This document shows, one piece after another, positions 124-19,392 of a DNA stretch of 27,809 nt (positions within the stretch are counted from its first letter, which is position 1; every line of letters starts with the position of its first letter). Under the pieces are notes generated by a model, which saw only the letters and a list, made by a program, of their open reading frames with translations, was not told the origin of the DNA and did no database searches. The position numbers were made by a program, and so were the translations under genes. This stretch comes from a virus: IMG/VR virus record IMGVR_UViG_3300024518_002812, positions 1-27,809 of that record. One strand, given 5' to 3'.

Positions 124-1017
124 TTACTTAACTACAGGAACGTTTGTAATTCCTGAAATCTGATAGGCACTATCAGGGTTAGCAATGTAATATGAAAGAA
201 TCCACTCAATATCAAACTCAGTACCAACCGACTCTTTTACAGGCTCGAAAGCTTGAAGAGGTTTAGCCTGAATACCAGTTACACCATTAGATTCAAATGC
301 ACATACATAGATAGAAGTAGTTGTATTAGCTTCTGTGAAATCAAGGATCTGAGAACCATCTGTAGCTTCACCAGCCATTACTACTGGAATTCCTGCGAAG
401 TAAAAGATAGGTGCACCAAATTGATCTGTAGCTTGACTAAGTTGATTAGAAAGAGCTGGATCATTAAGAGCATCAGAGAGACGTAGATACATCTCTTGTC
501 CTACAAAGATCACCTTATTAGATCCTTTAGTCTTAACTACAGCTTCACGGAGTTTACCCAATGAAAGAGCCGTGTCACCTTGTACAAGTTGTTGATCACC
601 ACTAATACGAGTCTGGAGACCATCAAATTCAAGTGCATTAGATCCAGTATCACCTTTGAAGAAAGCAAGTGAAACTGTACGAGCCATTGATTTTACTTTC
701 ATTTCCATATCTGTTTTAAGACGATCATCACCATACATATCTCTAAGTGCACGGTCAATAGTAATCTTACCACCACCAATTTTGATTTCTTCAGTACTTG
801 TATTAACAACACCAGAACTAGTAGCAAATGGTGTATTAATTGCACGGAAATCAGTATCAGGAAGTGTTCCCTCAGCATTATAAGAATATACCGACCCTAC
901 AATATTTGTAAATGATAGATAGTTCAATACTGGTGCATTGTCCATAAATGTTTGAATCACACCCGCTCTGAGTGGTTCACGAGTTGTTTTTTTGTATTCT
1001 GCTAATGTCATAGCCAT
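124..1017 (-). CDS. Major capsid protein (HK97-like fold expected)
   Basis: This 297-aa protein should be the main shell subunit of the phage head. The assignment rests on position: it directly follows terminase, portal, MuF-type protein and scaffold genes, the canonical head order. Length also fits. The N-terminal part (about residues 1-45) resembles the N-arm start of many capsid proteins, and the middle (about 75-110) has the charged helix and short strands expected of a capsid spine. The start is MAMTLAEYKK; an AAAGGA site 8 bases upstream supports the first ATG, and the third codon is also Met. No cysteine-rich or enzymatic motifs are present. It lacks an obvious fused protease, in keeping with the separate scaffold gene. 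The exact capsid subfamily cannot be told from sequence alone. Confidence 0.88.
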   Translation of the reverse strand: MAMTLAEYKKTTREPLRAGVIQTFMDNAPVLNYLSFTNIVGSVYSYNAEGTLPDTDFRAINTPFATSSGVVNTSTEEIKIGGGKITIDRALRDMYGDDRLKTDMEMKVKSMARTVSLAFFKGDTGSNALEFDGLQTRISGDQQLVQGDTALSLGKLREAVVKTKGSNKVIFVGQEMYLRLSDALNDPALSNQLSQATDQFGAPIFYFAGIPVVMAGEATDGSQILDFTEANTTTSIYVCAFESNGVTGIQAKPLQAFEPVKESVGTEFDIEWILSYYIANPDSAYQISGITNVPVVK

Positions 1018-1046
1018 AATTAATATCCTTTGTGATATTGTTTTGT

Positions 1047-1074
1047 ATTATATTTGTAATAGTATTTTGTATAA
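1047..1074 (-). promoter_or_regulatory. Possible internal promoter ahead of the capsid gene
   Basis: In the 143-base gap before the capsid gene the minus strand carries a perfect TATAAT (1047-1052) with TTATAC (1069-1074) 16 bases upstream. The -35 is weak and the surroundings are very AT-rich, so this is only a candidate. An extra promoter would fit the need for many capsid copies relative to scaffold and portal. Confidence 0.35.
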
Positions 1075-1160
1075 GTCTTGTTACTGTTACACAATAGAGA
1101 CTCAATCTCATGTTTTGTGTGTGCCTCAATCACATAACTATTTATACGGTTGTTGTGTTC

Positions 1161-1787
1161 TTAAATATCTAATGAATCAAAAGCCATATCAAAAGCTTCA
1201 TTAGCTGATAGGTTAGATACATCTACTACTTTAGCTGATGCTTTAACACCGCCTGTAGTCCCTGTACCAGCTTCACCTACAACATCATTAGGGTTCATTG
1301 TTCTAATCTGTTCAATAACTTCATCACCTTCATATAGAGCACCATTAACTTTGAGAGTGCGTACACCATCTTCATTAATAGAGAGTGATCCGTCTGTGAT
1401 ATATTCATTAGTCATCAATCCACCCAAACGAGCACCGAACATTGTACTCATATCAGTAGATACATTATCTTTAATAGATTGAATACGCTGTGCTGATTTC
1501 GCTTCATTGAGTGCTTTAGTATCAGCTTCTTTATCAAGTTCGATCTTGTTAAATTTGCCTTGAAGGATCTCAAAATCTTGTTCTAGTTTCGACTTCTCAG
1601 TATTAACAGTGGTTGTCTTAGACTCTAGATCAGTCACTTTAGCAATAGCTTCATCTCGATCTTTATTAGATAATCTCAATTTAGCCTCTACGTCATCGAA
1701 TGATTTTACACTTTCTTTTACTTCACTAAGAATCTCTTTTCCTTCATCTGAAGTCTCTAGAAATTCATATACTTTCTTCCAATTCAT
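1161..1787 (-). CDS. Capsid scaffolding protein
   Basis: A 208-aa acidic, strongly helical protein directly upstream of the capsid gene. Residues about 10-105 are rich in Glu, Lys, Asp and Leu with heptad-like spacing, typical of a coiled coil. The C-terminal half contains a short globular-looking segment (around NGALYEGDEVIEQIR), a Gly/Thr linker, and a final small helix (SANEAFDMAFDSL) that could contact capsid subunits. Scaffolds act inside the prohead and are lost before DNA packaging. The start ATG has an AGAGGG site that overlaps the stop codon of the preceding MuF gene, so the two are probably translated in tandem. No protease motif is seen. Confidence 0.82.
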   Translation of the reverse strand: MNWKKVYEFLETSDEGKEILSEVKESVKSFDDVEAKLRLSNKDRDEAIAKVTDLESKTTTVNTEKSKLEQDFEILQGKFNKIELDKEADTKALNEAKSAQRIQSIKDNVSTDMSTMFGARLGGLMTNEYITDGSLSINEDGVRTLKVNGALYEGDEVIEQIRTMNPNDVVGEAGTGTTGGVKASAKVVDVSNLSANEAFDMAFDSLDI

Positions 1788-1795
1788 TTAACCCT

Positions 1796-2932
1796 CTACG
1801 GTTCGTTTGTTGTAAATAATGTTTGTGGTATCATCTTAGGATTCTTATGGAGATCTACACCTTGTTTAGCTAACCCTGTTTGATAGGTCTTTGCTGATTG
1901 TGCGTTACCAACACCAATTATATTACCACGTTCTTTATCACCAATATTAGAAAGGTATTTGTTAGCTCTCTTCTGAGAATATTGCGGTTTTCTTTTAATA
2001 TCAGTATCACCAGCCATTATATAGTTCTTTTGACATAAACAATTAGGGTGAGCTGGTATAGGAGCACTAGCATCTTTAGGATACACACCCTCACCTATAC
2101 CGTATAAATCAGCATCTGCATAAAAATCACAGATATCAGTTCTAGGATGTGCTGAAGATAGAACCCATTCAAAACCTACTATATCGTCATCTTCATACAT
2201 AGCTCTTTGAAAACTCATCTCATATGATCGTGCAATCTCAGTTCTGGCAATCCGTTTGTTAAGATAGCTAACCTTAGATTGTACCGCCCTGTCTACAGCT
2301 TTATCTATTAGTGCTGTCTTATCCGACCTCATAACATTAATAACATTCTGATATGACTTCTGTAGAGCCTTGTTAGATCTCTCATTGAATGATAATTTAC
2401 TTACTTGTCTCTGTAGCTTATTCAATTCTTTTTCTACTGCGGGTGTTAGTCCTATCTTCTTGAACTCTGCAATTGCTTTAGTCATAGAATCAGGAATCCT
2501 ATCTAATGATGAGAATCCCTTCTTCTTAATCTCTGAGAATACAGTTTCTACACTGGTAGCCTTTTTAGCCTGATCTCTTAAAACCTCTTTAACAGCTCTT
2601 TGTGCATCTTTAGAGTGTAACCTATCACTAAGTGACAACCCACCCACAAATTGAGTATTTAAGAAGTATTCAGAAGCTAATGCACTATCCACAGCTATAG
2701 TTGTTTTCTCTACAGCACTTTCAGCCACATCACCCAGCACTTTACTATAGAGAGATTCCATATTTTGAGTGTATGATACATCAATGAATGCAGTATCTAC
2801 AGCTTTAGCTATAGTCATACCCTTATTAATATTCTTAGTAATCTCTTTATTCAACACAGCATATAGTTTATCTGCTTCACTCTCAAATACACCGAATGCT
2901 GTTTGTAATAGTGTTGTTCTTCCACGTGGCAT
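1796..2932 (-). CDS. Minor head protein with MuF domain (head morphogenesis)
   Basis: This 378-aa protein is helical through residues 1-225 and ends in a MuF-like (Mu gpF, SPP1 gp7 type) domain at about 228-305. The signature is visible: RIARTEIARSYEMSF, then HPRTDICDFYA, and PAHPNCLCQ, giving the paired Cys/His pattern usual in this family. Such proteins bind the portal, are carried in small numbers in the head, and take part in head assembly or DNA delivery. It begins 5 bases after the portal stop and ends within the ribosome site of the scaffold gene. The ribosome site of its own start is weak, so translation may be coupled to the portal gene. Confidence 0.88.
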   Translation of the reverse strand: MPRGRTTLLQTAFGVFESEADKLYAVLNKEITKNINKGMTIAKAVDTAFIDVSYTQNMESLYSKVLGDVAESAVEKTTIAVDSALASEYFLNTQFVGGLSLSDRLHSKDAQRAVKEVLRDQAKKATSVETVFSEIKKKGFSSLDRIPDSMTKAIAEFKKIGLTPAVEKELNKLQRQVSKLSFNERSNKALQKSYQNVINVMRSDKTALIDKAVDRAVQSKVSYLNKRIARTEIARSYEMSFQRAMYEDDDIVGFEWVLSSAHPRTDICDFYADADLYGIGEGVYPKDASAPIPAHPNCLCQKNYIMAGDTDIKRKPQYSQKRANKYLSNIGDKERGNIIGVGNAQSAKTYQTGLAKQGVDLHKNPKMIPQTLFTTNEP

Positions 2933-2937
2933 ATTGT

Positions 2938-4428
2938 TTACTCTAATCCGTTATTAGCAAGTATTTTGCTGTTGTCGATCTCTGATAATAGTATTGATGT
3001 TGTACTGTCATCACCATATATTTCACTTACAATACTTTTTAGAATAGCTTTCGTATTATCAGCTAGTCCACGTTCTTCCATGATGATCAATTCTTCATTG
3101 AGTTCTGATAGTGTAACTTTAGGTTTAGGAGAGAAACTATCTTTATATTTGGTATTAGCTACAAATGAACCACCACCCATATATAGTTTATACTCTTCTA
3201 CTCTCCAATTATCCACAGCCTTTAGAATCATTGTTGTGTGTAATAGAGCATCATTGATAGGTGTAAAGCTAAACTCTTTACTATATCCACTTTCAGGACT
3301 ACCCAAACGAGTTACAGATACACCGCCCTCACTCATCATTTGATGTAAGTTCTCTAGCTTCTGGTTAATACGTGCTATCTGTACTGTAACCTTATTAGCA
3401 TCTGGTGATACAACACCAACTGATGCACCATCAGTACCGTCAATTTGTAACATATTATCTACACCGTAACGTATACCATCCACAATACCAGTAGTCCATA
3501 AATAGTCGTGTGCTTGCTTCTCAATAACCCAATCAAGTTTAGATTCAGCACTATAGATATTCAGGTTCATAGATGCAATGGAATATGATTTAGGTTTAGG
3601 AAGATAATCATATACACTAGTACGAGCACCAGCAAATACAGCTAGAATCGGTATATGTGATATAGCTTTTACTTCTGGTTCATTCCACTTTTGACCGTCA
3701 TCACTGGTATATATCCGTACTTCATTAGTAGACCATTCATTCATGATAAATGTACCATTAGGTAGTTCATTGATGAATGTTATTTCAATTAGATTACCAT
3801 CAATATCAGTATTATACCCTTGTACAGATTCAGCATATTGTATATACTCCTTAGGTACAGTATCACCCTCTCGTTTATCCATTACTAAAAATGCTACCTC
3901 ATCACGGTAAACACCAGCCATTAGATTCTGTGAACTCTCATTCTTAGAAGTACCAGCACCGTTAACATCTTTAACATAATCTAGGTATGGATGGTTCTCT
4001 ATAACCTTACCACCTAGTCCAGCAGTTACAAAAGTTTGTGGTGGTAGCTTGAATACTGCCTGATATTTAGCATCAATATAATTTCTAAAGTTATTAGTGT
4101 ATTCACTAGACCTCACCCGTGTTTTATAGAAGTTCTCAGTTGGATTCGGGATAAGATAAGAGTACACATCTTCATTAGTACACAATGTTAAATTACCTAA
4201 TGACATTGTACTCAGTTTAGTTTTACCAGTTCCTGTCTTACCACTAACACCACCTGAACCTTCATACATATCTTTTAAGAATCTATAAGATGATACATCT
4301 CGATAGTCTATAAAGATCTCTTGTGTTTCTGGCATTGGTGCATTAACTGGTGCTGATCGTGCACCAGTAGCGTGTGAAGGTAGTGTATTGAAATCCTGTT
4401 CAATATCTAATTCTATTTGTTCACTCAT
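2938..4428 (-). CDS. Portal protein
   Basis: A 496-aa protein between large terminase and the MuF protein, the standard portal position, and of portal length. The portal forms the dodecameric ring at one head vertex through which DNA is pumped. Supporting features are an N-terminal mixed region beginning around SYRFLKDMYEG, a central alpha/beta part containing a KAISHIPILAVFAG stretch, a long helix-rich segment (about 285-370, ending IARINQKLENLHQMM) and an acidic C-terminal tail. The start lies inside the end of the terminase gene region with AAAGGA 9 bases upstream. Residues 63-70 read GKTGTGKT, which matches a P-loop pattern by chance; no Walker B partner is apparent. Confidence 0.85.
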   Translation of the reverse strand: MSEQIELDIEQDFNTLPSHATGARSAPVNAPMPETQEIFIDYRDVSSYRFLKDMYEGSGGVSGKTGTGKTKLSTMSLGNLTLCTNEDVYSYLIPNPTENFYKTRVRSSEYTNNFRNYIDAKYQAVFKLPPQTFVTAGLGGKVIENHPYLDYVKDVNGAGTSKNESSQNLMAGVYRDEVAFLVMDKREGDTVPKEYIQYAESVQGYNTDIDGNLIEITFINELPNGTFIMNEWSTNEVRIYTSDDGQKWNEPEVKAISHIPILAVFAGARTSVYDYLPKPKSYSIASMNLNIYSAESKLDWVIEKQAHDYLWTTGIVDGIRYGVDNMLQIDGTDGASVGVVSPDANKVTVQIARINQKLENLHQMMSEGGVSVTRLGSPESGYSKEFSFTPINDALLHTTMILKAVDNWRVEEYKLYMGGGSFVANTKYKDSFSPKPKVTLSELNEELIIMEERGLADNTKAILKSIVSEIYGDDSTTSILLSEIDNSKILANNGLE

Positions 4429-4433
4429 TTATA

Positions 4434-5654
4434 TTATTCCTTTGTATGGTTTATACCACGTTTAGCCATTGGAGCGGTTGCATATCTTATAGCATCCCAA
4501 CCATGATTATATTTGTCTATGATTATAGGTAAGACCTCATCTGTCATAGGGTCTATTTTACGTTTATAATTCTCAGCTTCTTCTATCATCTCTGTTAGGC
4601 TGGTGTGTATGATTATCTCATCAAATGACCTTAGATAGCGTATACCCTGTTTAATAGATCCTGCACCCTTATAAGCTCTACGAACATCAAAGCCGTCTTT
4701 CTTAAGATATTTACGTGCAAATCCTTCATTATGATCAGTCCATATAGTATATTCATTAGTTGTTGGGCACGTCTCTCTTAACCACATAGGTAAATCGTTT
4801 GTGTCCGCATCATATATGAAAGAAGCTTTATCTATATAGAGTTTGTTCTTGTTAACAAAACATCTCACTATCACTGTTGGATCACCTTGTGCACCAGAAC
4901 CCCAATCAAGGCCATGATAGAACACAACACGGTTTTCATCTGGTGATTTGAAGTTTTGTACTACCCATTTACCTTTGAATATTTGAGCGTGTGAATGCTG
5001 TTCACATTGACCTAACCACACATGATTATAAAGATCTATATCAGTGTTCTGTGCGTGTATTCGGATTTCATCTAGAGCTTTCGGAAACCATGGATTGTCT
5101 TGATAATTCATTTCAATTATCAAAGAATTCTCTGGTGGTTCCTGAACACAAAACATATTATGAATACAATCTTTTTCGTGTCTAGGATTGTATGTTATCC
5201 ATATCTCTGAATCTTGAAACATTCCTGAAACTTTCTCACCACGGATAGTAGGATCTAAATCTTCCCACGACTTTTTAGTGATAGCTTCACCCTCTTCAAT
5301 CCAGCATATATTAATACCTTCCAGAGACTTGATACCGCGTGTGTTTTGCCATAATCCAGCAAATATGAATTGAGTACCATTAATGCCTGTAATAGAGTGA
5401 TCTGTAATCCTGTAGAAATCTTCTAAACCCATGTTGTATATCTGGTCACACAGTAACTTATGCACAGACTGTTTAATGTTGTTCTGAATCTCTCTTACAC
5501 ACAAAATCCTTAATGGTTCATCCCTACCCAGCAACAACAACATTCTAGCTACAGTCCACGATTTACCAGAACCACGACCACCGTATACAACCTTGTAACG
5601 TGCTCTATATGTAGCCAACATCTTTAACTTCTTAGGAAGTGATATTATTCCCAC
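4434..5654 (-). CDS. terL: Terminase large subunit (packaging ATPase/nuclease)
   Basis: The 406-aa motor that cuts concatemers and pumps DNA into the prohead. The ATPase domain shows Walker A GGRGSGKS (25-32), Walker B ICWIEEGE (116-123, with the catalytic Glu pair) and a coupling motif ITYNPR (153-158). The C-terminal RNase H-fold nuclease shows the acidic residues expected of the family: D250 in GLDWGSG, D307 in WTDHNE and D387 in HGWDAIRY. The layout fits the Terminase_3/PBSX-type group. The start is GTG at 5654, overlapping the small-terminase stop by 10 bases; no strong ribosome site is seen, which suggests translational coupling. An ATG at codon 12 is too close to Walker A to be preferred. 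Confidence 0.97.
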   Translation of the reverse strand: MGIISLPKKLKMLATYRARYKVVYGGRGSGKSWTVARMLLLLGRDEPLRILCVREIQNNIKQSVHKLLCDQIYNMGLEDFYRITDHSITGINGTQFIFAGLWQNTRGIKSLEGINICWIEEGEAITKKSWEDLDPTIRGEKVSGMFQDSEIWITYNPRHEKDCIHNMFCVQEPPENSLIIEMNYQDNPWFPKALDEIRIHAQNTDIDLYNHVWLGQCEQHSHAQIFKGKWVVQNFKSPDENRVVFYHGLDWGSGAQGDPTVIVRCFVNKNKLYIDKASFIYDADTNDLPMWLRETCPTTNEYTIWTDHNEGFARKYLKKDGFDVRRAYKGAGSIKQGIRYLRSFDEIIIHTSLTEMIEEAENYKRKIDPMTDEVLPIIIDKYNHGWDAIRYATAPMAKRGINHTKE

Positions 5655-6052
5655 GAGATAACCGTTTTACTATCTTTAACTTCACCTGTTGCTGTACCAT
5701 CATTATTATACAGCCCTAATAGCTTACTTAGTTCTTGCTGTACAGATAGTGCATCCTTAACTTTTCCACGCTCCACACACGATCTGTATAGCCGTGTCAA
5801 TCTGGTTACAGCTTGCGTTCTTTCATATTCAAAATCTTCTCTAAGATCTTCATGAAATTGTATCTTGGCTTTACGAATAACATTACGGATTGCACTCTCT
5901 TTAATATCCCAGTATGTGCTATCAGTCCAGTTTGCTTTATCTGTTACATAATTTATAATTTCAGGTGTTGACCATCCAGCCATTAACCACTTCTGAATCT
6001 GAAACATTCTTAGAGCAAATTTACTTTCATTTGCTTTATCTTCTTTAGGCAT
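5645..6052 (-). CDS. terS: Terminase small subunit
   Basis: A 135-aa protein that recognises the packaging site and regulates the large subunit. The frame stays open further upstream, but the start MPKEDKANESK at 6052 is chosen because it has a GTGGGG ribosome site 6 bases upstream and because the longer version adds an implausible hydrophobic extension overlapping the divergent gene. The N-terminal part has a helix-turn-helix look (QKWLMAGWSTPEIINYV), followed by a helical middle region for oligomerisation and a short Gly/Asp-rich tail. It overlaps the large terminase by 10 bases. Confidence 0.88.
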   Translation of the reverse strand: MPKEDKANESKFALRMFQIQKWLMAGWSTPEIINYVTDKANWTDSTYWDIKESAIRNVIRKAKIQFHEDLREDFEYERTQAVTRLTRLYRSCVERGKVKDALSVQQELSKLLGLYNNDGTATGEVKDSKTVISWE

Positions 6053-6171: not shown

Positions 6172-6627
6172 GTGATAAAACTGACAAAAGAAGTACGTGA
6201 TAGATTCGATGAATTAGCACGAGAGTACAGAACAGAAGAAACTACAGATAGAAGACGTGGAAAGATATTGATGATTATATCTGACACCTACAGAAACACT
6301 AAACTAAAAGAATCTAAAACGATTGTCCCACGTGATCAAGATGACTACTGGCAGTGGTTCTATTATAAGATCATATACGCTCTGAATAAGTGGAAAGATA
6401 ACGGTAGTGCATCATTCACAACCTTTTTAGGTATCTGTTTAGTAGGTGTACGCCAAACGTATCTGAATAATGATTATAAGAAGCTGAAGGTGAATCTATA
6501 TAAGAAATACGATAATAGACCAGTACAGATAGTTCATTCTGCGTGTATGGACTATGACAAGGACTATCTAGAAGATATATATCCTGAACGTGAATGGTCA
6601 CTTGTTAAAAAATCTGTGATGAAATAA
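6172..6627 (+). CDS. Sigma-70 region 2-like protein (possible transcription regulator)
   Basis: One of only three convincing plus-strand genes. It starts with GTG at 6172 behind AAAGGA and encodes 151 aa. Residues about 60-100 read like sigma factor region 2: YYKIIYALNKWKDNG, then SASFTTFLGICLVGVRQ, then YLNNDYKK, where the usual pattern is an acidic helix, a K/R-FD-G-(K/A)-FSTY core and a basic recognition helix. No region 4 helix-turn-helix is visible in the last 45 residues, so it would be a minimal or diverged factor. It lies divergent to the terminase operon and convergent to the pilin genes, sharing their terminator. An alternative is a helical DNA-binding protein unrelated to sigma. 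The assignment is an eyeball match and needs profile searching. Confidence 0.5.
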   Translation: MIKLTKEVRDRFDELAREYRTEETTDRRRGKILMIISDTYRNTKLKESKTIVPRDQDDYWQWFYYKIIYALNKWKDNGSASFTTFLGICLVGVRQTYLNNDYKKLKVNLYKKYDNRPVQIVHSACMDYDKDYLEDIYPEREWSLVKKSVMK

Positions 6628-6633
6628 AAAAAT

Positions 6634-6664
6634 GGCAACATATTTAATTATATGTTGCCTTTTT
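6634..6664. terminator. Bidirectional intrinsic terminator
   Basis: A perfect 10-bp stem (GGCAACATAT / ATATGTTGCC) with a 6-base loop, flanked by seven As on the left and five Ts on the right. It ends the plus-strand sigma-like gene, whose stop is 6 bases upstream, and the minus-strand pilin operon from the other side. Confidence 0.93.
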
Positions 6665-6688: not shown

Positions 6689-7210
6689 TTACTGATTTAT
6701 ATAGTATACACCAGTGATAAATTGATCAACTAACCCTTTATAGTATTGACTTGCTCTACGTTTGTAATGTATCTCTGATAAATCTTCTGTTGGTGACGAT
6801 CTCTCTATAGTTAATGCAATATCTACAGAGGGTATTTTTAACATATTCCGTACAGATTCCATAGGGTATGCAGAAAGTACTATAGTATTACCATCTACAA
6901 CTTCAAATCCATACGCCCATCGATTCAACGGGTCTACCATCCATCCTTGTGCATTCTGTACATACTTATAACCCATTGATGTACCATATCTTATAAAATA
7001 ATCTTGATCCCATGTATACGGTAAATCACCAGTTTCTTCTATTACCTTGTCAAGTGCCTTATCCATTGCTAATAACGTCTCACACGCCTCTGTGACAATA
7101 GATTTATGATACCATATGACCATTGATGGTATTGCTGTTGTAGCTAGTATCATGATGATAGCCATAACTACAATTAATTCAAGTAACGTGAACCCCTGTT
7201 CATTTTTCAT
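6689..7210 (-). CDS. Type IV pilin-like protein A (pseudopilin type)
   Basis: A 173-aa protein with a textbook class III signal: a 6-residue basic leader MKNEQG, cleavage before Phe7, then FTLLELIVVMAIIMI with the conserved Glu at mature position 5 (residue 11). It should be processed by a prepilin peptidase and held in the inner membrane by its first helix. The soluble domain contains GWMVDPLNRWAYGFEV (about residues 88-103), reminiscent of the DPWGNPY element in GspG-type major pseudopilins. The start has AAAGG 8 bases upstream. It follows pilin-like B and ends at a strong terminator. Such genes normally belong to host pilus or type II secretion operons; in a phage it is unusual and suggests host acquisition. 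Confidence 0.88.
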   Translation of the reverse strand: MKNEQGFTLLELIVVMAIIMILATTAIPSMVIWYHKSIVTEACETLLAMDKALDKVIEETGDLPYTWDQDYFIRYGTSMGYKYVQNAQGWMVDPLNRWAYGFEVVDGNTIVLSAYPMESVRNMLKIPSVDIALTIERSSPTEDLSEIHYKRRASQYYKGLVDQFITGVYYINQ

Positions 7211-7236
7211 TACTACTACCTTTCTATATAGTAAAA

Positions 7237-7259
7237 GGGTGCACCATTACAGTACACCC
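7237..7259 (-). terminator. Weak terminator or attenuator between the two pilin genes
   Basis: On the minus strand an 8-bp stem (GGGTGTAC / GTGCACCC pairing with one wobble) and a 7-base loop are followed by four Us. It lies 16 bases past the pilin-like B stop and 26 bases before the next start. The short U-run suggests partial termination that would lower expression of the second pilin. Confidence 0.45.
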
Positions 7260-7275
7260 AGTTCAAAGGGAATTA

Positions 7276-7830
7276 TTAGTGTATAGTTACATTATCACCC
7301 ACGAGTAGACCATCATATATAGGCGGTGCAAAGAATTTATATGAATGACCTTCACGCCCTGCTAAAGGTGGGATAACATCAAAGTAAATCAAATCTGTTA
7401 CAGTTAATCCACCAAATTCACGTTTAGGAGTAGCCACAAACCAAGTATTAGCCACGTCCCACGTAAAACTATAATCTTTAGATCCATCTAATAGTAAATC
7501 AGTACCACCACACCCTTTAAATATCTGTGCCTCTGTTAGTGTAGTAATATCTTTTCCATCCATCAATAATGACTCTATACCAACCTTAAATGAACTCATT
7601 GATGATTGAGCATTACTAATACGAGCTTTGACCATAAACTTACTGTAACTAGCAATAGATGCTGTTGCAAGTATCCCTAAAATAACTACTACTACAATCA
7701 GTTCAACTAATGTGAAACCAGACTGTGACCGCATCCGACGTTCTTTATTCTCTCTAAGAATCTGTAATTCTTTCTGTTCTTGAGACTGAGAATGTACTAC
7801 TGTTGCTGGTGTTTCTTTTCTTGAAGTCAT
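7276..7830 (-). CDS. Type IV pilin-like protein B with long N-terminal leader
   Basis: A 184-aa protein. The frame is open further upstream, but the ATG at 7830 has an excellent GGGAG site 6 bases upstream, while the later Met (7734, just before RSQSG) has none. The prepilin motif is G38 followed by FTLVELIVVVVILGILATA, with the conserved Glu at residue 43 (mature position 5). Cleavage would therefore remove a 38-residue polar, Gln/Glu/Arg-rich leader, far longer than the usual 5-10. The soluble domain has two central Cys/Gly-rich turns (GCGGTD) and several aromatic strands. It is probably a minor pilin or pseudopilin. It precedes pilin-like A under a shared promoter. Confidence 0.86.
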   Translation of the reverse strand: MTSRKETPATVVHSQSQEQKELQILRENKERRMRSQSGFTLVELIVVVVILGILATASIASYSKFMVKARISNAQSSMSSFKVGIESLLMDGKDITTLTEAQIFKGCGGTDLLLDGSKDYSFTWDVANTWFVATPKREFGGLTVTDLIYFDVIPPLAGREGHSYKFFAPPIYDGLLVGDNVTIH

Positions 7831-7892
7831 AAACTTCTCCCTATTGTTTATATTACTAATTGAGTATAATCCCTTATCGTACCCATAGTGAT

Positions 7893-7930
7893 AATATAGA
7901 TTGTGGTCACTCGGTGGTGTAACCACAATC
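7893..7930 (-). promoter_or_regulatory. Promoter of the pilin pair with overlapping inverted repeat
   Basis: On the minus strand TATATT (7893-7898) lies 18 bases downstream of TTACAC (7917-7922). A perfect 9-bp inverted repeat, GATTGTGGT at 7899-7907 and ACCACAATC at 7922-7930, spans the spacer and the -35, as expected of an operator. The same repeat could instead form a hairpin after the upstream gene, but no U-run follows it. Confidence 0.5.
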
Positions 7931-8380: not shown

Positions 8381-8848
8381 TTACGCTATAGCTACATTTC
8401 CTACCATTGTAGCTGATTGATAACCGTATTTCTTTTGAATCGTTTTAAAGTTAGTACCGCGCTTTTTCTTTTGTACTGTACCTTCTGGAGCCTTGTACCA
8501 CTTCTTCTTGCTTTTTGACCACTTAAAACCGTTCTCTTTAATGATATCTTTGAATGAAAACGTATTACCAGACAACCAGACCCATGTACCAGTAAGTTCA
8601 ACAGTTACACCATCCATACCTTTTACAAACTCATTAGCGTTGATAAAGTCTTTAAGAGCGTTTGACTCTTCTTTTGCATCCTTAGTAGTATACGCAAATG
8701 TTCCACGTAAAAGAGACTCGTACTGTGATTGCATCTTGATAAACTCAACAGCATTACCAGAAGCTTTATCTGGATGAAGTTCGATACACCATTTACGAAA
8801 AATCTTTTTTGCTTCTTCTTTTGTCATTTCTTTTGAAAAGTAAATCAT
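8381..8848 (-). CDS. J-domain (DnaJ-like) protein with C-terminal WYK motif
   Basis: A 155-aa protein. Start ATG at 8848 has AGGGG 6 bases upstream; a GTG one codon earlier is less likely. Residues 8-48 form a short J domain with the catalytic HPD tripeptide at 25-27 in the context KIFRKWCIELHPDKASG, the element that stimulates DnaK ATPase. There is no Gly/Phe region or zinc finger, so it is a minimal class C type J protein. A second segment (about 81-118) reads VTVELTGTWVWLSG then FKDIIKENGFKWSKSKKKWY, a pattern I associate with small phage and plasmid J-domain proteins. It may recruit host DnaK for phage assembly or replication-complex remodelling. It has its own promoter. Confidence 0.85.
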   Translation of the reverse strand: MIYFSKEMTKEEAKKIFRKWCIELHPDKASGNAVEFIKMQSQYESLLRGTFAYTTKDAKEESNALKDFINANEFVKGMDGVTVELTGTWVWLSGNTFSFKDIIKENGFKWSKSKKKWYKAPEGTVQKKKRGTNFKTIQKKYGYQSATMVGNVAIA

Positions 8849-8904
8849 CACATACCCCTATGTTTTGTTTAGTGTTGTTAGTGTCTCTCACTCTCAACAC
8901 TAAT

Positions 8905-8933
8905 AATATATATTATGACATAAGGGTGTGCAA
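8905..8933 (-). promoter_or_regulatory. Promoter, TTGCAC class, for the J-domain gene
   Basis: On the minus strand TTGCAC (8928-8933), a 17-base spacer and TATATT (8905-8910). The box ATAATATATATTAT (8903-8916) is itself a perfect palindrome. Sequence on the downstream side (CTCTCAACACTAATAA on the plus strand) is nearly repeated at the 10108 promoter. Confidence 0.72.
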
Positions 8934-8934
8934 A

Positions 8935-9396
8935 CTATTTTAATTTAATTTCTTCAAATTTTTCTGAGAATCCTGCACAATCCATAGTGTATATTTTCCG
9001 TTTAGCTCCTATTAACACTGATATTGTAATACGTCCATTTTGCTTTAATATATCAATTGTGCTTTTATCTACTACTACACCTATAGCTATACCTAACTGC
9101 ATAGTGTTGATTGATGTTACAGGATGAACAGTACCATGTTTGTCTTTGATTTTAATTACTACATTTCCAGATATAATAGAATTATTCAGAATTATATTTA
9201 CTGGTGATATTTCCGAATCTGGTGATATTACTACTACACACCCTTCACCGTATTCAGAAAAACCAGTATCCGCTACAAACAATTGAGACATACCAGTGTT
9301 ATCACCAAAATCATCAGTGATGGGATGTATTTCCATTAATGCACCAGTAGCAACAACAACAGCAATAAACAATACTAACAACAATACTTTTTTCAT
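8935..9396 (-). CDS. Exported protein of unknown function
   Basis: A 153-aa protein with a clear N-terminal export signal: MKK, then a hydrophobic core LLLVLFIAVVVATGA. The rest is beta-rich (NVVIKIKDKHGTV, GRITISVLIGAKRKIYT) with Cys53 and a second Cys near residue 139 that could form a disulphide outside the cytoplasm. AAAGGA lies 7 bases before the ATG. I recognise no family. A periplasmic or membrane-anchored phage accessory protein made from an early-type cluster could act in superinfection exclusion or envelope modification; that role is speculation. Confidence 0.75.
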   Translation of the reverse strand: MKKVLLLVLFIAVVVATGALMEIHPITDDFGDNTGMSQLFVADTGFSEYGEGCVVVISPDSEISPVNIILNNSIISGNVVIKIKDKHGTVHPVTSINTMQLGIAIGVVVDKSTIDILKQNGRITISVLIGAKRKIYTMDCAGFSEKFEEIKLK

Positions 9397-11162: not shown

Positions 11163-11258
11163 TTATATTTCTTCATTTATAATAATATTAGTTCGTGTAT
11201 CTCTTCTTGTTTTCTCTACTGTTGCTATTACTACTACTCCTGCTAATACTATAATCAT
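11163..11258 (-). CDS. 31-aa membrane micro-protein
   Basis: A short frame starting MIIVLAGVVVIATVEKTRR, whose ATG overlaps the HNH gene's stop (ATGA), a classic coupling arrangement. AAGGA lies 10 bases upstream. The first 13 residues are hydrophobic, followed by a basic cluster, so a single short membrane span with the rest in the cytoplasm is plausible. Its function is unknown. Confidence is limited by length. Confidence 0.45.
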   Translation of the reverse strand: MIIVLAGVVVIATVEKTRRDTRTNIIINEEI

Positions 11259-11620
11259 TTTTGGTTCTTCCTTTGCTCGTTCTGTTCGTCTGTGATCGTC
11301 TGATGACATTTTTTACACAATAGCTGTAACTCACTCATATGACACCAGAGCCTATGCCAGAACTCATCAAAGGTGTATTCTGTATAGTGTTTGCCTATTT
11401 CTATTACTTCAATTGTATGATGGGCTTCTACTTGTGTGGGTGAAAAGTCCTTACCGCATATGTCACAGTCGTATCGAACTCCGTTTCTTGCTCCACGTTT
11501 CTTAGATTTCTTTGTTTTCTTGAATGCCTTGACATATTCAGATCTTGAAAATGTCTGTCGCATAGCCTGTAATAGCTTATACCACTCTGAATTGAGTATC
11601 CACGGTTCGTTATTTTCCAT
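11255..11620 (-). CDS. HNH endonuclease
   Basis: A 121-aa protein with a zinc-stabilised HNH domain: CDIC (52-55), EAHH (65-68, catalytic His pair), and CKKCHQ (102-107). Residues 30-50 are strongly basic (KAFKKTKKSKKRG) and likely bind DNA. The family nicks or cuts DNA; in phages such genes serve in packaging, in recombination or as homing nucleases. Here it sits in the replication operon, two bases after the primase-like gene, with a strong AGGAG ribosome site, far from terminase. A recombination or homing role is therefore more likely than packaging. Confidence 0.88.
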   Translation of the reverse strand: MENNEPWILNSEWYKLLQAMRQTFSRSEYVKAFKKTKKSKKRGARNGVRYDCDICGKDFSPTQVEAHHTIEVIEIGKHYTEYTFDEFWHRLWCHMSELQLLCKKCHQTITDEQNEQRKNQK

Positions 11621-11622
11621 TA

Positions 11623-12456
11623 TTATCTCCTAGCATTATTAATAGCTCTGTTTATCTCTTCAGTTGAGAATGAATCTTGGTACATCTTGAGAGTTATAGC
11701 ATCTAATGTATCTTGGTCACCACATGCTACAGCAACTGCAATAGCTACGAACGAAAGGTGCCCCATTCCATTAGGTGATATTCCTGCTTCAAGATAGTCT
11801 AAGACCTTCCTGTTATTAGCTACAGATGGTTTACGTACAGGACGATCAGCAAATGCCCGTTCCTTAGCTTCCCTACGTGACTTCTTAATAGCTTCCCTCT
11901 TCTCCCATTTAGACTTCTCCTTCATGATCTCATCTCGGTAGTCTTCGAAGTCGAATATCTTACCTATATGATAATCAAATTTATAATTATCTAAGGTCTT
12001 ACAGTTGGGTGAATATTGTCCTGCGACCTTAATTGTCGCTGGATCATTCCACTTAAACTTCTTTTTCATCCAAGTTTTATAATACTTACTTCGAAGTGTG
12101 TCAACAGTAATAGGAGTTTTAATAGGGACTATAATTCTATACTTATTCTTAGCTTCTGTGTTACTAAAACTTGTGTATCTGAAATGAGTAAACTCAAATT
12201 TGAAATCATCCCAATGTAATCCATCATCTATATCCAATATAAGGACTGTCATACATTCTGCATTATCTTGTATTGTATATGATTCACCGTTTTCATCATA
12301 ATAGAATGCGAAGGGCATCAAATATGGAGCGGAATTCTTCGTGTCTGATATGATTGGATTAGATATCAATTCAATTACATCATCGTAATCTAAATCAATC
12401 TCGTTATCTAACGTGATATTTCTATCATATTGTGTTTTTGTTATAGTAAATATCAC
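11623..12456 (-). CDS. Primase-like protein (archaeo-eukaryotic primase/prim-pol type)
   Basis: A 277-aa protein with the hallmarks of an AEP-type primase domain: LILDIDD (72-78) supplies the metal-binding D75 and D77, followed by RYTSFSNTEAKNKYRIIVPI in about 93-112, matching the family's pattern of a Ser/His-containing strand then R-hh-hP, and a third element NDPATIKVAGQYSPN (137-151). The last 90 residues are basic then helical, typical of a PriCT-like tail. It should make primers for DNA replication with the helicase at 15280-17094. The start is GTG at 12456, overlapping the Rha stop by four bases, with GGTGA upstream. Confidence 0.75.
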   Translation of the reverse strand: MIFTITKTQYDRNITLDNEIDLDYDDVIELISNPIISDTKNSAPYLMPFAFYYDENGESYTIQDNAECMTVLILDIDDGLHWDDFKFEFTHFRYTSFSNTEAKNKYRIIVPIKTPITVDTLRSKYYKTWMKKKFKWNDPATIKVAGQYSPNCKTLDNYKFDYHIGKIFDFEDYRDEIMKEKSKWEKREAIKKSRREAKERAFADRPVRKPSVANNRKVLDYLEAGISPNGMGHLSFVAIAVAVACGDQDTLDAITLKMYQDSFSTEEINRAINNARR

Positions 12457-13112
12457 TGTTTATCACCGACTGTAATTGATTCTGCTTCGATTTTATTCCA
12501 AACGAATCGAGGTAAAGCGATACCGCTCCATTTGTTATTGTTAGTATTACGGTACTTACAATTGTTGTCTTTGATATACTCTTTGATTTTATCCTTAGAT
12601 ACGTCGAACCCAACATTACACATTGCTCCGTAGGTAATATACTTTACGTCACGGTCGAGATCCACATCAAAATAATCTTTAACATCGTCAAGGCAATTAC
12701 GTTTCCGTGTATCATGACCTTTGAGTGTACGTGTTGATAGTTTATTATCTACAAGAGACTGTTCTAACTCTTTATTCTTACGAACAGCTATAAGCGACAT
12801 TTCAAGTTGAGCTTCAAGGTCTAACACTGGTGCTTGAACTTTCATATCTATCCATTCGTGGATAATCTTCTGACGGAGTTTCACGTTGTATCCTGAAGCG
12901 AGAATTAATGATTGCTCTTCATCAAGATTGAACATAGGTAACTCTTTACCGTTGATACCAATATAGTAGCCCCCAAATTTGGGGGCATCTATTTCAAGCT
13001 CTTCAAGTTGCTTTTTAATATCACGTATAACGTGATCGTGTCGTTTACCTGTAATATCTGCAATCTTCAAAGAACTCATTGCGTTAGTCGCCACTGTAAT
13101 TTCATTTTTCAT
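12453..13112 (-). CDS. rha: Rha family phage regulatory protein
   Basis: A 219-aa protein. The ATG at 13112 is preferred over an earlier Met because AAGGA lies 7 bases upstream. Residues 12-92 match the Rha N-terminal domain: SSLKIADITGKRHDHVIRDI, then PKFGGYY, FNLDEEQSLILASGY and KLRQKIIHEWIDM. Rha proteins are phage regulators known to interfere with growth of lambdoid phages in some hosts. Residues 95-219 form a different domain of unknown role ending in a basic, aromatic segment (ALPRFVWNKIEAE). The gene lies between the micro-protein genes and primase, coupled to the latter. It contains an 18-bp perfect palindrome (12969-12986). Confidence 0.88.
   Translation of the reverse strand: MKNEITVATNAMSSLKIADITGKRHDHVIRDIKKQLEELEIDAPKFGGYYIGINGKELPMFNLDEEQSLILASGYNVKLRQKIIHEWIDMKVQAPVLDLEAQLEMSLIAVRKNKELEQSLVDNKLSTRTLKGHDTRKRNCLDDVKDYFDVDLDRDVKYITYGAMCNVGFDVSKDKIKEYIKDNNCKYRNTNNNKWSGIALPRFVWNKIEAESITVGDKQ
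12969..12986. repeat. 18-bp perfect GC-flanked palindrome inside rha
   Basis: GCCCCCAAATTTGGGGGC is a perfect self-complement coding for Ala-Pro-Lys-Phe-Gly-Gly. Runs of five C and five G are rare in this AT-rich genome. It may be chance codon choice or a protein-binding site within the gene. Confidence 0.6.
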
Positions 13113-13147
13113 CTTTATATCCTTCTGCCTCATCGGGTAATGTATGT

Positions 13148-17771: not shown

Positions 17772-18029
17772 ATGAGAAATGCAATGTACAGAGTTAAACA
17801 TACTGGAAATGACAGTGACACTATAGATATCGATACTCTAGAACTTAACTGGTGTGAGTGTATTCCAAAATCATCACCACCTTATAAGTTTGAAGGGTTT
17901 ACAGATGTATGCACGTGCTACTGGACTGAATACAAATCTAGACTAATCAAGAATGGTGCTGAACGTGTATTTGATAATATTACTGGTGAAGTTATTGCTT
18001 TTAGTGGTATTGTATTGGAGTTGATCTAA
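17772..18029 (+). CDS. Hypothetical CxC protein, 85 aa
   Basis: Begins MRNAMYRVKHTGND at 17772 with AGAGG 5 bases upstream. It contains two CxC pairs, WCEC at 27-30 and VCTCYW at 46-51, which could bind a metal. The end (GEVIAFSGIVLELI) is hydrophobic and beta-prone. The stop and the start of the next gene share one base (TAATG), so it is coupled to the metallopeptidase. I recognise no family. It is on the strand opposite to nearly all other genes and so is probably controlled separately. Confidence 0.72.
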   Translation: MRNAMYRVKHTGNDSDTIDIDTLELNWCECIPKSSPPYKFEGFTDVCTCYWTEYKSRLIKNGAERVFDNITGEVIAFSGIVLELI

Positions 18030-18430
18030 TGAAATATAAAGAAATTGAGATTCCTATTTATGGTGGATCTGTTATGTTATATTCTGGAAAAGTAGATGAT
18101 TGTAATATTCACTTTTATAAAACAAACAATACAGACCATAAAGATATTATATCAAATGGTTATTATGGTGTATGTATGACATTGAATACTGGTGTAGAAA
18201 TGATATGGATTAATTCTCATAATGATTATAATACAGTATCTCATGAGATCACACATCTAGTTAAAAACATATTACTTGTTAGGTGTGGTATGATTCATAC
18301 ATCAGACAGCACTGAAGCATGGGCATACCTTACAGGATGGATTACAGAACAATGGTTTTCTAAAGATGGTTGGAAGTCATACACAAGAACAGAATTAAAA
18401 AAGATGAGAAAGAAGAAAACAAATCCATAA
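18029..18430 (+). CDS. HExxH zinc metallopeptidase-like protein
   Basis: A 133-aa protein with the zincin signature HEITH (72-76) inside TVSHEITHLVKNIL, and a downstream Glu at residue 96 in DSTEAWAYLTGWI that could be the third zinc ligand (gluzincin-type layout). No signal peptide is present, so it acts in the cytoplasm. The basic C-terminal tail (KKMRKKKTN) may bind nucleic acid. Small phage-borne zincins of this size are known but poorly studied; ImmA/IrrE-like proteases that cut repressors have a related layout. Its partner and target are unknown. It is coupled to the CxC protein and ends 30 bases before a bidirectional terminator. Confidence 0.7.
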   Translation: MKYKEIEIPIYGGSVMLYSGKVDDCNIHFYKTNNTDHKDIISNGYYGVCMTLNTGVEMIWINSHNDYNTVSHEITHLVKNILLVRCGMIHTSDSTEAWAYLTGWITEQWFSKDGWKSYTRTELKKMRKKKTNP

Positions 18431-18966: not shown

Positions 18967-19392
18967 TTATTTACTCCTATTAAACATTAAACCGTGGTAA
19001 CACCAACTATCATTTTTATTAGTTTTAGTACCATACCATGTACCAAGCTCGTTACGTGTATCAAAATGAAATGAATAAGCTTCACCATTCCAATATACTC
19101 CAATACCTCTAAAACCAACAGAGACCCCGTATAGAGCCACTTTAACAGCTTCGGTATGTGATATATCATCCATCACATAAAAGTCTACAGCACACCCCTC
19201 TAAATGAGTTCTAGAGGTATGATTACCAGATGTCAACCCGTTATGTATTAATTTAATAGGTTTATCAACTAAAGATCTAACTCTATCTAGATATTTTATT
19301 GTCAAGTATGCTACATCTTCAATATGTGCACCAGTAGCAATAACTTCATTACTAGTGAAATGTGTGATATAATCAAAGTCTGTATATTTCAT
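18967..19392 (-). CDS. Endolysin, peptidase M15 type
   Basis: A 141-aa protein with the M15 signature: SRTHLEGCAVDF supplies H63 and D70, and YSFHFDTR supplies H109, the three zinc ligands of the D-Ala-D-Ala peptidase-like fold. The N-terminal HFTSNEVIATG segment resembles the start of the family's cell-wall-cutting members. It would cut peptide cross-links of peptidoglycan at the end of infection. There is no signal peptide, so export must depend on a holin, for which the next gene is the candidate. AGGAGG lies 5 bases before the ATG. It lies at the end of the tail operon. Confidence 0.88.
   Translation of the reverse strand: MKYTDFDYITHFTSNEVIATGAHIEDVAYLTIKYLDRVRSLVDKPIKLIHNGLTSGNHTSRTHLEGCAVDFYVMDDISHTEAVKVALYGVSVGFRGIGVYWNGEAYSFHFDTRNELGTWYGTKTNKNDSWCYHGLMFNRSK

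Follow-up and report, generated by a model that had tools for sequence, protein, structure and literature searches.

A tandem pair of type IV prepilin genes ahead of the terminase genes in a phage record from IMG/VR

Two adjacent genes, here called P1 and P2, encode what are, to judge from their sequences, genuine type IV prepilins, and lie within a tailed-phage sequence, flanked by replication-type genes on one side and by the terminase on the other, as a preliminary description of this DNA had maintained. The window analysed is the whole of IMG/VR record IMGVR_UViG_3300024518_002812, which comprises 27,809 bases. The preferred reading, held at a probability of about 0.42, is that these phage-owned proteins would enter a filament of the host, its type IV pilus or that of type II secretion, and alter or jam it. 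The features on which the argument draws are as follows.

124-1017, minus strand: major capsid protein (phrog_212, E 4e-45)
2938-4428, minus strand: portal protein (phrog_145, E 4.5e-15)
4434-5654, minus strand: terminase large subunit (PF04466, E 8e-36; phrog_3717, E 6e-69)
5645-6052, minus strand: putative terminase small subunit, assigned by position only (the ORF opens at 6220, with a likely ATG at 6052)
6634-6659, both strands: probably bidirectional terminator between P2 and a convergent plus-strand ORF (-15.4 kcal/mol, z -5.5)
6689-7210, minus strand: P2 prepilin, 173 aa (PF07963, 37.1 bits, E 1.9e-9)
7237-7259, minus strand: terminator-like hairpin between P1 and P2 (-14.5 kcal/mol, z -4.0)
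7276-7830, minus strand: P1 prepilin, 184 aa (PF07963, 36.8 bits, E 2.4e-9)
7899-7930, minus strand: inverted repeat GATTGTGGTTAC-8-GTGACCACAATC (-18 kcal/mol, z -5.4)

The two matches to the Pfam N_methyl family, for which the cut-off is 21.2 bits, are far beyond chance at E ~2e-9 each, and bear out the earlier claim that both genes carry full prepilin signals. The features of a class III signal are present in P1 and P2 alike: a leader ending in Gly, Phe at +1, Glu at +5 and a hydrophobic helix. With the cleavage site marked by a slash, the context is MKNEQG/FTLLELIVV in P2 and RRMRSQSG/FTLVELIVV in P1. The P2 leader is the six residues MKNEQG, and the mature protein, beginning FTLLELIVVMAIIMILATTAIPSM, has Pro at +22. 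The P1 leader, ending RRMRSQSG, is unusually long at 38 residues and precedes a mature protein of 146 aa that begins FTLVELIVVVVILGILATASIASYSK; a start at the internal ATG of 7734 would shorten the leader to six residues, but the best start is the ATG at 7830, which is preceded by AGGGAG and is the only one of the two with a clear ribosome-binding sequence on inspection. Solved pilins in the PDB match the P1 helix with E down to 6e-11, and P2 at E 6e-6. The two proteins share 27% identity over 114 residues, most of which lie in the helix.

Beyond this helix, little can be related to known families. The P1 and P2 ectodomains match nothing in IMG/VR, in the GenBank phages, in 12 genomes with related terminases or in 398 genomes from the single phylum to which a Methylophaga MAG belongs (assumed to be Pseudomonadota); the sole match in this last set, to a two-component-type protein at E 0.047, was rejected as chance. 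The likeness to GspG, PpdD, PilA and geopilin is confined to the N-terminal helix, the leader cleavage site and Glu+5, with scores of 30-40 bits set against cut-offs of 88.85-400 for GspG and type IV pilins, and the globular part unmatched. P2 reaches 32.7 bits with the NCBIfam GspG model (cut-off 88.85), through its N-terminus only, and the curated cut-offs of the GspG, GspH, ComG and PilA equivalogs are all missed, the best score being 40.2 bits against 138. By eye only, the P2 ectodomain has a GspG-like stretch, DPLNRWAYGF. Single-sequence structure predictions, with a mean pLDDT of 44-48 for the two proteins, place a helix over 41-90 in P1, followed by two strands, and a helix over 9-60 in P2, followed by strands; Foldseek searches with these low-confidence models gave no match at E <= 0.001.

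The transcriptional signals around the pair correspond only partly to those first described. Terminator-like sites are enriched in the region (four, compared with 1.3 expected from shuffles), and those proposed between P1 and P2 and after P2 both exceed shuffled sequence. The hairpin between the genes suggests that P1 and P2 may be expressed in unequal amounts. The terminator after P2 is probably bidirectional, because it is detected on both strands and lies between convergent frames, and would therefore also serve the convergent ORF. No support was found for a promoter belonging to the pair: 15 sigma-70-like sites were counted in the region, compared with 16.9 +/- 4.0 in shuffles, and none falls within 7893-7930 at a threshold of 9 of 12. 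The inverted repeat said to overlap this promoter is itself real. It has a 12 bp stem, lies approximately 12 bases past the stop of the next gene upstream and has a terminator-like score; it looks more like the terminator of that gene, with a role as operator also possible.

The setting of the pair is that of a phage. The head block at 124-5654 encodes the terminase large subunit, portal, a MuF-type head morphogenesis protein and the major capsid protein; family searches with the ORF of the putative small subunit returned no significant match. Rha, HNH, GIY-YIG and D5/VapE-type helicase genes are found at 11-17 kb of the record, and past the helicase region lie large tail-type ORFs and an endolysin-like gene (18967-19392; phrog_2649, E 9e-6). 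The typical mid-tail genes are absent, and the record is probably a fragment. No tRNA was detected in it. Neither an integrase nor a repressor occurs among the scanned ORFs of this incomplete record, and the earlier reference to a lysogen is correspondingly unsupported.

Several neighbouring frames deserve mention in their own right. Just upstream of the pilins, the minus strand at 8381-9396 encodes a DnaJ-domain protein, at 26.0 bits to PF00226 against a cut-off of 27.8, and also a small protein with a signal-like hydrophobic N-terminal stretch. Between the pilins and the putative small terminase subunit lies the convergent ORF (6172-6627, plus strand, 151 aa); by eye it resembles sigma region 2, but its reading as a sigma factor found no support in the libraries searched. 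The plus-strand ORF at 18029-18430 contains the HExxH motif SHEITHLV and is metallopeptidase-like, with no match in a family search.

In the collections searched, this phage represents a lineage without close kin. Among GenBank phages, the best matches reach at most 40% identity for the terminase and at most 33% for the capsid, and there are none to the portal, the 1022-aa tail ORF, the D5-type helicase, P1 or P2. In IMG/VR neither P1 nor P2 has a close relative, nor do the capsid and the 1022-aa tail protein, and no syntenic relative of the phage was found in any of these collections. The search for the same pair in related phages, which had been proposed at the outset, likewise found none: no prepilin motif is present near the terminase at 21 viral and 80 genome loci with terminase relatives, nor anywhere in 19 whole records with related terminases.

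Prepilins are nevertheless encoded by other phages. The clearest comparison is with VpKK5 (orf64), 033B (gene0062) and GH32, isolated tailed phages of the Queuovirinae that infect V. parahaemolyticus and carry a full-length prepilin scoring 38.2 bits to PF07963; the VpKK5 homologue is 60.6% identical to that of 033B and GH32. The GenBank note to VpKK5 orf64 records a methylation site and 'similar to MSHA pilin protein of Vibrio vulnificus'. In VpKK5 and 033B the pilin gene is directly upstream of that for the small terminase subunit, which is followed by an amidase gene; the pair described here also stands ahead of the terminase genes, from which a single convergent ORF separates it. These Vibrio phages differ from the present one in lineage and in having one pilin rather than two, and their pilin is alignable with P1 in the helix region only (31% over 68 residues). 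Three genes upstream of the VpKK5 pilin lies a gene for a zinc metallopeptidase, which may be compared with the HExxH ORF mentioned above.

A second group is represented by PHROG 3433, annotated 'pilin' in the category moron, auxiliary metabolic gene and host takeover. It has no full-length similarity to the pair, sharing only an N-terminal part with P1 (E 2e-8; 7-81 of the 127-position profile) and P2 (E 9e-5; 17-63). A protein of the Synechococcus phage ACG-2014f, in which annotated pilins were reached from a marine pilin query against the GenBank phages, matches this profile over its full length (E 4e-60). At 123 aa, it has a different ectodomain from P1 and P2, and its gene lies among photosynthesis genes and is followed by a phrog_3415 gene whose product has no PF07963 match. 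The same query also reached the full-length pilin of 033B and GH32. A generic pilin consensus found nothing among GenBank phages, probably owing to masking of the helix by the low-complexity filter.

A strict prepilin DNA pattern identified 46 stretches in IMG/VR, and relaxing the pattern raised this to at least 120; some are likely to be host flanks or otherwise non-viral, but many are not. One family of tandem prepilins accounts for 51 sequences in 24 loci, and four of its contigs carry a T4-type gp23 capsid gene, two of them with a terminase as well. On these marine-type viral contigs, at ten loci among others, the prepilins stand two to four in tandem, an arrangement for which no published description was found; in three of them the cassette opens with a divergent prepilin-like protein (G/NSLAEFAVTTAMM) lacking a PF07963 match. 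These cassettes resemble the pair in being tandem prepilins on viral contigs, but their ectodomains form a family of their own, with nothing detectable in common with P1 and P2 beyond the helix. A further prepilin-like family of 75-88 residues, with a small conserved ectodomain (CIEGYKFVVGEKGQARQILDEFGKG), is present on seven viral contigs; Synechococcus phage BUCT-ZZ01 provides a distant match. Minimal prepilin-like peptides, consisting of signal and helix with almost no ectodomain, are encoded at L053:7432-7629 (plus strand, approximately 66 aa) in a 244,834-base record and at L047:10919-11005 (minus strand, approximately 27 aa) in one of 233,234 bases, which are presumably vibriophage KVP40 and aeromonad phage Aeh1, respectively. 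Eight prepilin-like ORFs lie within 14 kb of a 41-kb IMG/VR record, which may be of plasmid or host origin and not viral.

The literature contributes a passing mention, for the KVP40-like phage ValKK3, of an ORF231 that is PilE-like (PMC13142089), and no study was found on the function of any phage-encoded pilin. The preliminary statement that no such phage pilin was established is hence overtaken at the level of annotation, by PHROG 3433, the GenBank pilins and the marine cassettes, but stands at that of function. A terminase operon preceded by two tandem genes for full-length prepilins whose ectodomains are orphans is a variant unseen in the isolates found here.

The proposal that P1 and P2 tamper with pili or pseudopili, already made on first description, was accepted as a sensible hypothesis. 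Host machinery would be needed, as first supposed, because a prepilin peptidase is encoded neither on this record nor on nine other pilin-bearing viral records. During infection, the host peptidase would cleave and methylate P1 and P2, which would then join the inner-membrane pool of pilins, and their canonical alpha1 helices, with Glu+5 in both, may allow them to co-assemble into, cap or jam a type IV pilus or type II secretion pseudopilus, replacing the native filament surface with foreign ectodomains. The two would act as a two-subunit insert, as part of the filament or a tip pair, rather than as independent genes. The benefit could lie in fewer or altered pili, such that pilus-dependent competitors are excluded and less progeny is lost to cells already infected. 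The helix is conserved and the ectodomains differ between groups of phages, which would be expected if the helix gives access to the host filament: it would be required by the host assembly platform, leaving the ectodomain free to vary with the filament. The pattern suggests a recurrent habit of phages, with different ectodomains in different lineages.

The same features could be turned to the opposite purpose. As accessory pilins, P1 and P2 might prime or decorate the host filament in the manner of a minor-pilin tip pair, improving adhesion or uptake, or keeping pili available as the receptor for progeny. The retention in both proteins of Glu+5, the residue for normal assembly, and of Pro+22 in P2, is consistent with such a helping role, as are the three to four tandem prepilins of the marine cassettes, which recall minor-pilin operons. 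It is considered unlikely, though, as a native partner was not found, the ectodomains match none of the minor pilin families known and the scores fall far below the GspG, GspH and ComG cut-offs.

Less likely again is that the genes are passengers, host pilins picked up by accident and under no selection, or else components of the virion. Pilins are abundant in bacterial genomes, with control matches in 8 of 14, some of the viral-contig cases are likely host flanks, and the pair is absent from the relatives of this phage that were searched. Set against this, both frames are intact, Glu+5 is kept twice and codon usage is phage-like (z +0.4 for P1 and -1.4 for P2, relative to the other phage genes), while a like gene is kept beside that of the small terminase subunit in two Vibrio phages even though the pilins are only 60.6% identical. 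The suggestion of a moron acquired from a host is not supported, given this codon usage and the lack of a donor for P1 or P2 among 410 genomes. The G+C content is flat across the locus, and derivation of the cassette from a host operon was rejected with both donor and compositional contrast absent. Among the hallmarks of a moron, the pair has its own terminator (6634-6659), but neither foreign composition or an identifiable donor nor a sigma-70-like promoter of its own. Hence the analysis demonstrates no recent origin from a host for it, and no donor. Elsewhere in the record, codon usage gives z -5.0 for HNH, -4.8 for Rha and -2.4 for the terminase, a poorer fit than that of either pilin gene; the first two (11255-11620 and 12453-13133, minus strand) are outliers and likelier recent imports than the pilins.

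A role in virion release or envelope disruption, through prepilins that destabilise the inner membrane late in infection or build a filament spanning the periplasm, seems improbable. It would suit the placement of the genes immediately ahead of the terminase in this phage and in VpKK5 and 033B, where the amidase gene also follows, as well as the 27-66 aa peptides of large phages that almost lack an ectodomain. However, this phage has a separate endolysin-like gene, and the large ectodomains of P1 and P2 would be superfluous in a simple membrane disruptor. An assembly artefact joining host to phage DNA, raised in the preliminary description, is highly improbable even for a single metagenome record, because with phage genes on both flanks one join cannot explain the pair and two would be demanded, and because composition and codon usage are continuous.

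That the proteins would enter and alter or jam a host filament remains the preferred reading, although the low confidence of the ectodomain models and the terminator between P1 and P2, with the unequal expression that it suggests, count against it. Other pilin-bearing phages include T4-type lineages, which are generally regarded as virulent, and any version of this reading based on lysogenic conversion is weakened by them. Phages are known to target type IV pili in order to exclude superinfection, as with D3112 Gp05, Aqs1, Gp21 and Pf4 proteins (PMC11436027). D3112 Gp05 (Tip), DMS3 Aqs1 and the Pf4 proteins have the same supposed target and benefit (PMC11436027), but are not pilins, which counts against this reading, and several act on the assembly ATPase PilB, whereas here the effector would be a pilin.

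It is conceivable, at somewhat less than even odds, that the encoding of prepilins is a general and so far unrecognised strategy by which phages remodel or disable the pili or secretion of their hosts. Such genes would then have been taken up independently by this phage, the Queuovirinae, cyanomyoviruses, marine T4-type phages and giant vibriophages, with the prepilin N-terminus acting as the ticket into the filament machine and lineage-specific ectodomains attached to it. The known phage blocks on pili are small inhibitors of the assembly machinery, from which the feeding in of a phage's own pilin subunits would differ. If true, this would offer phages a new way of excluding superinfection and would be a natural source of pilins that are dominant-negative or chimeric; isolates that carry a gene of this kind exist (VpKK5, 033B, GH32 and ACG-2014f), which makes the idea directly testable.
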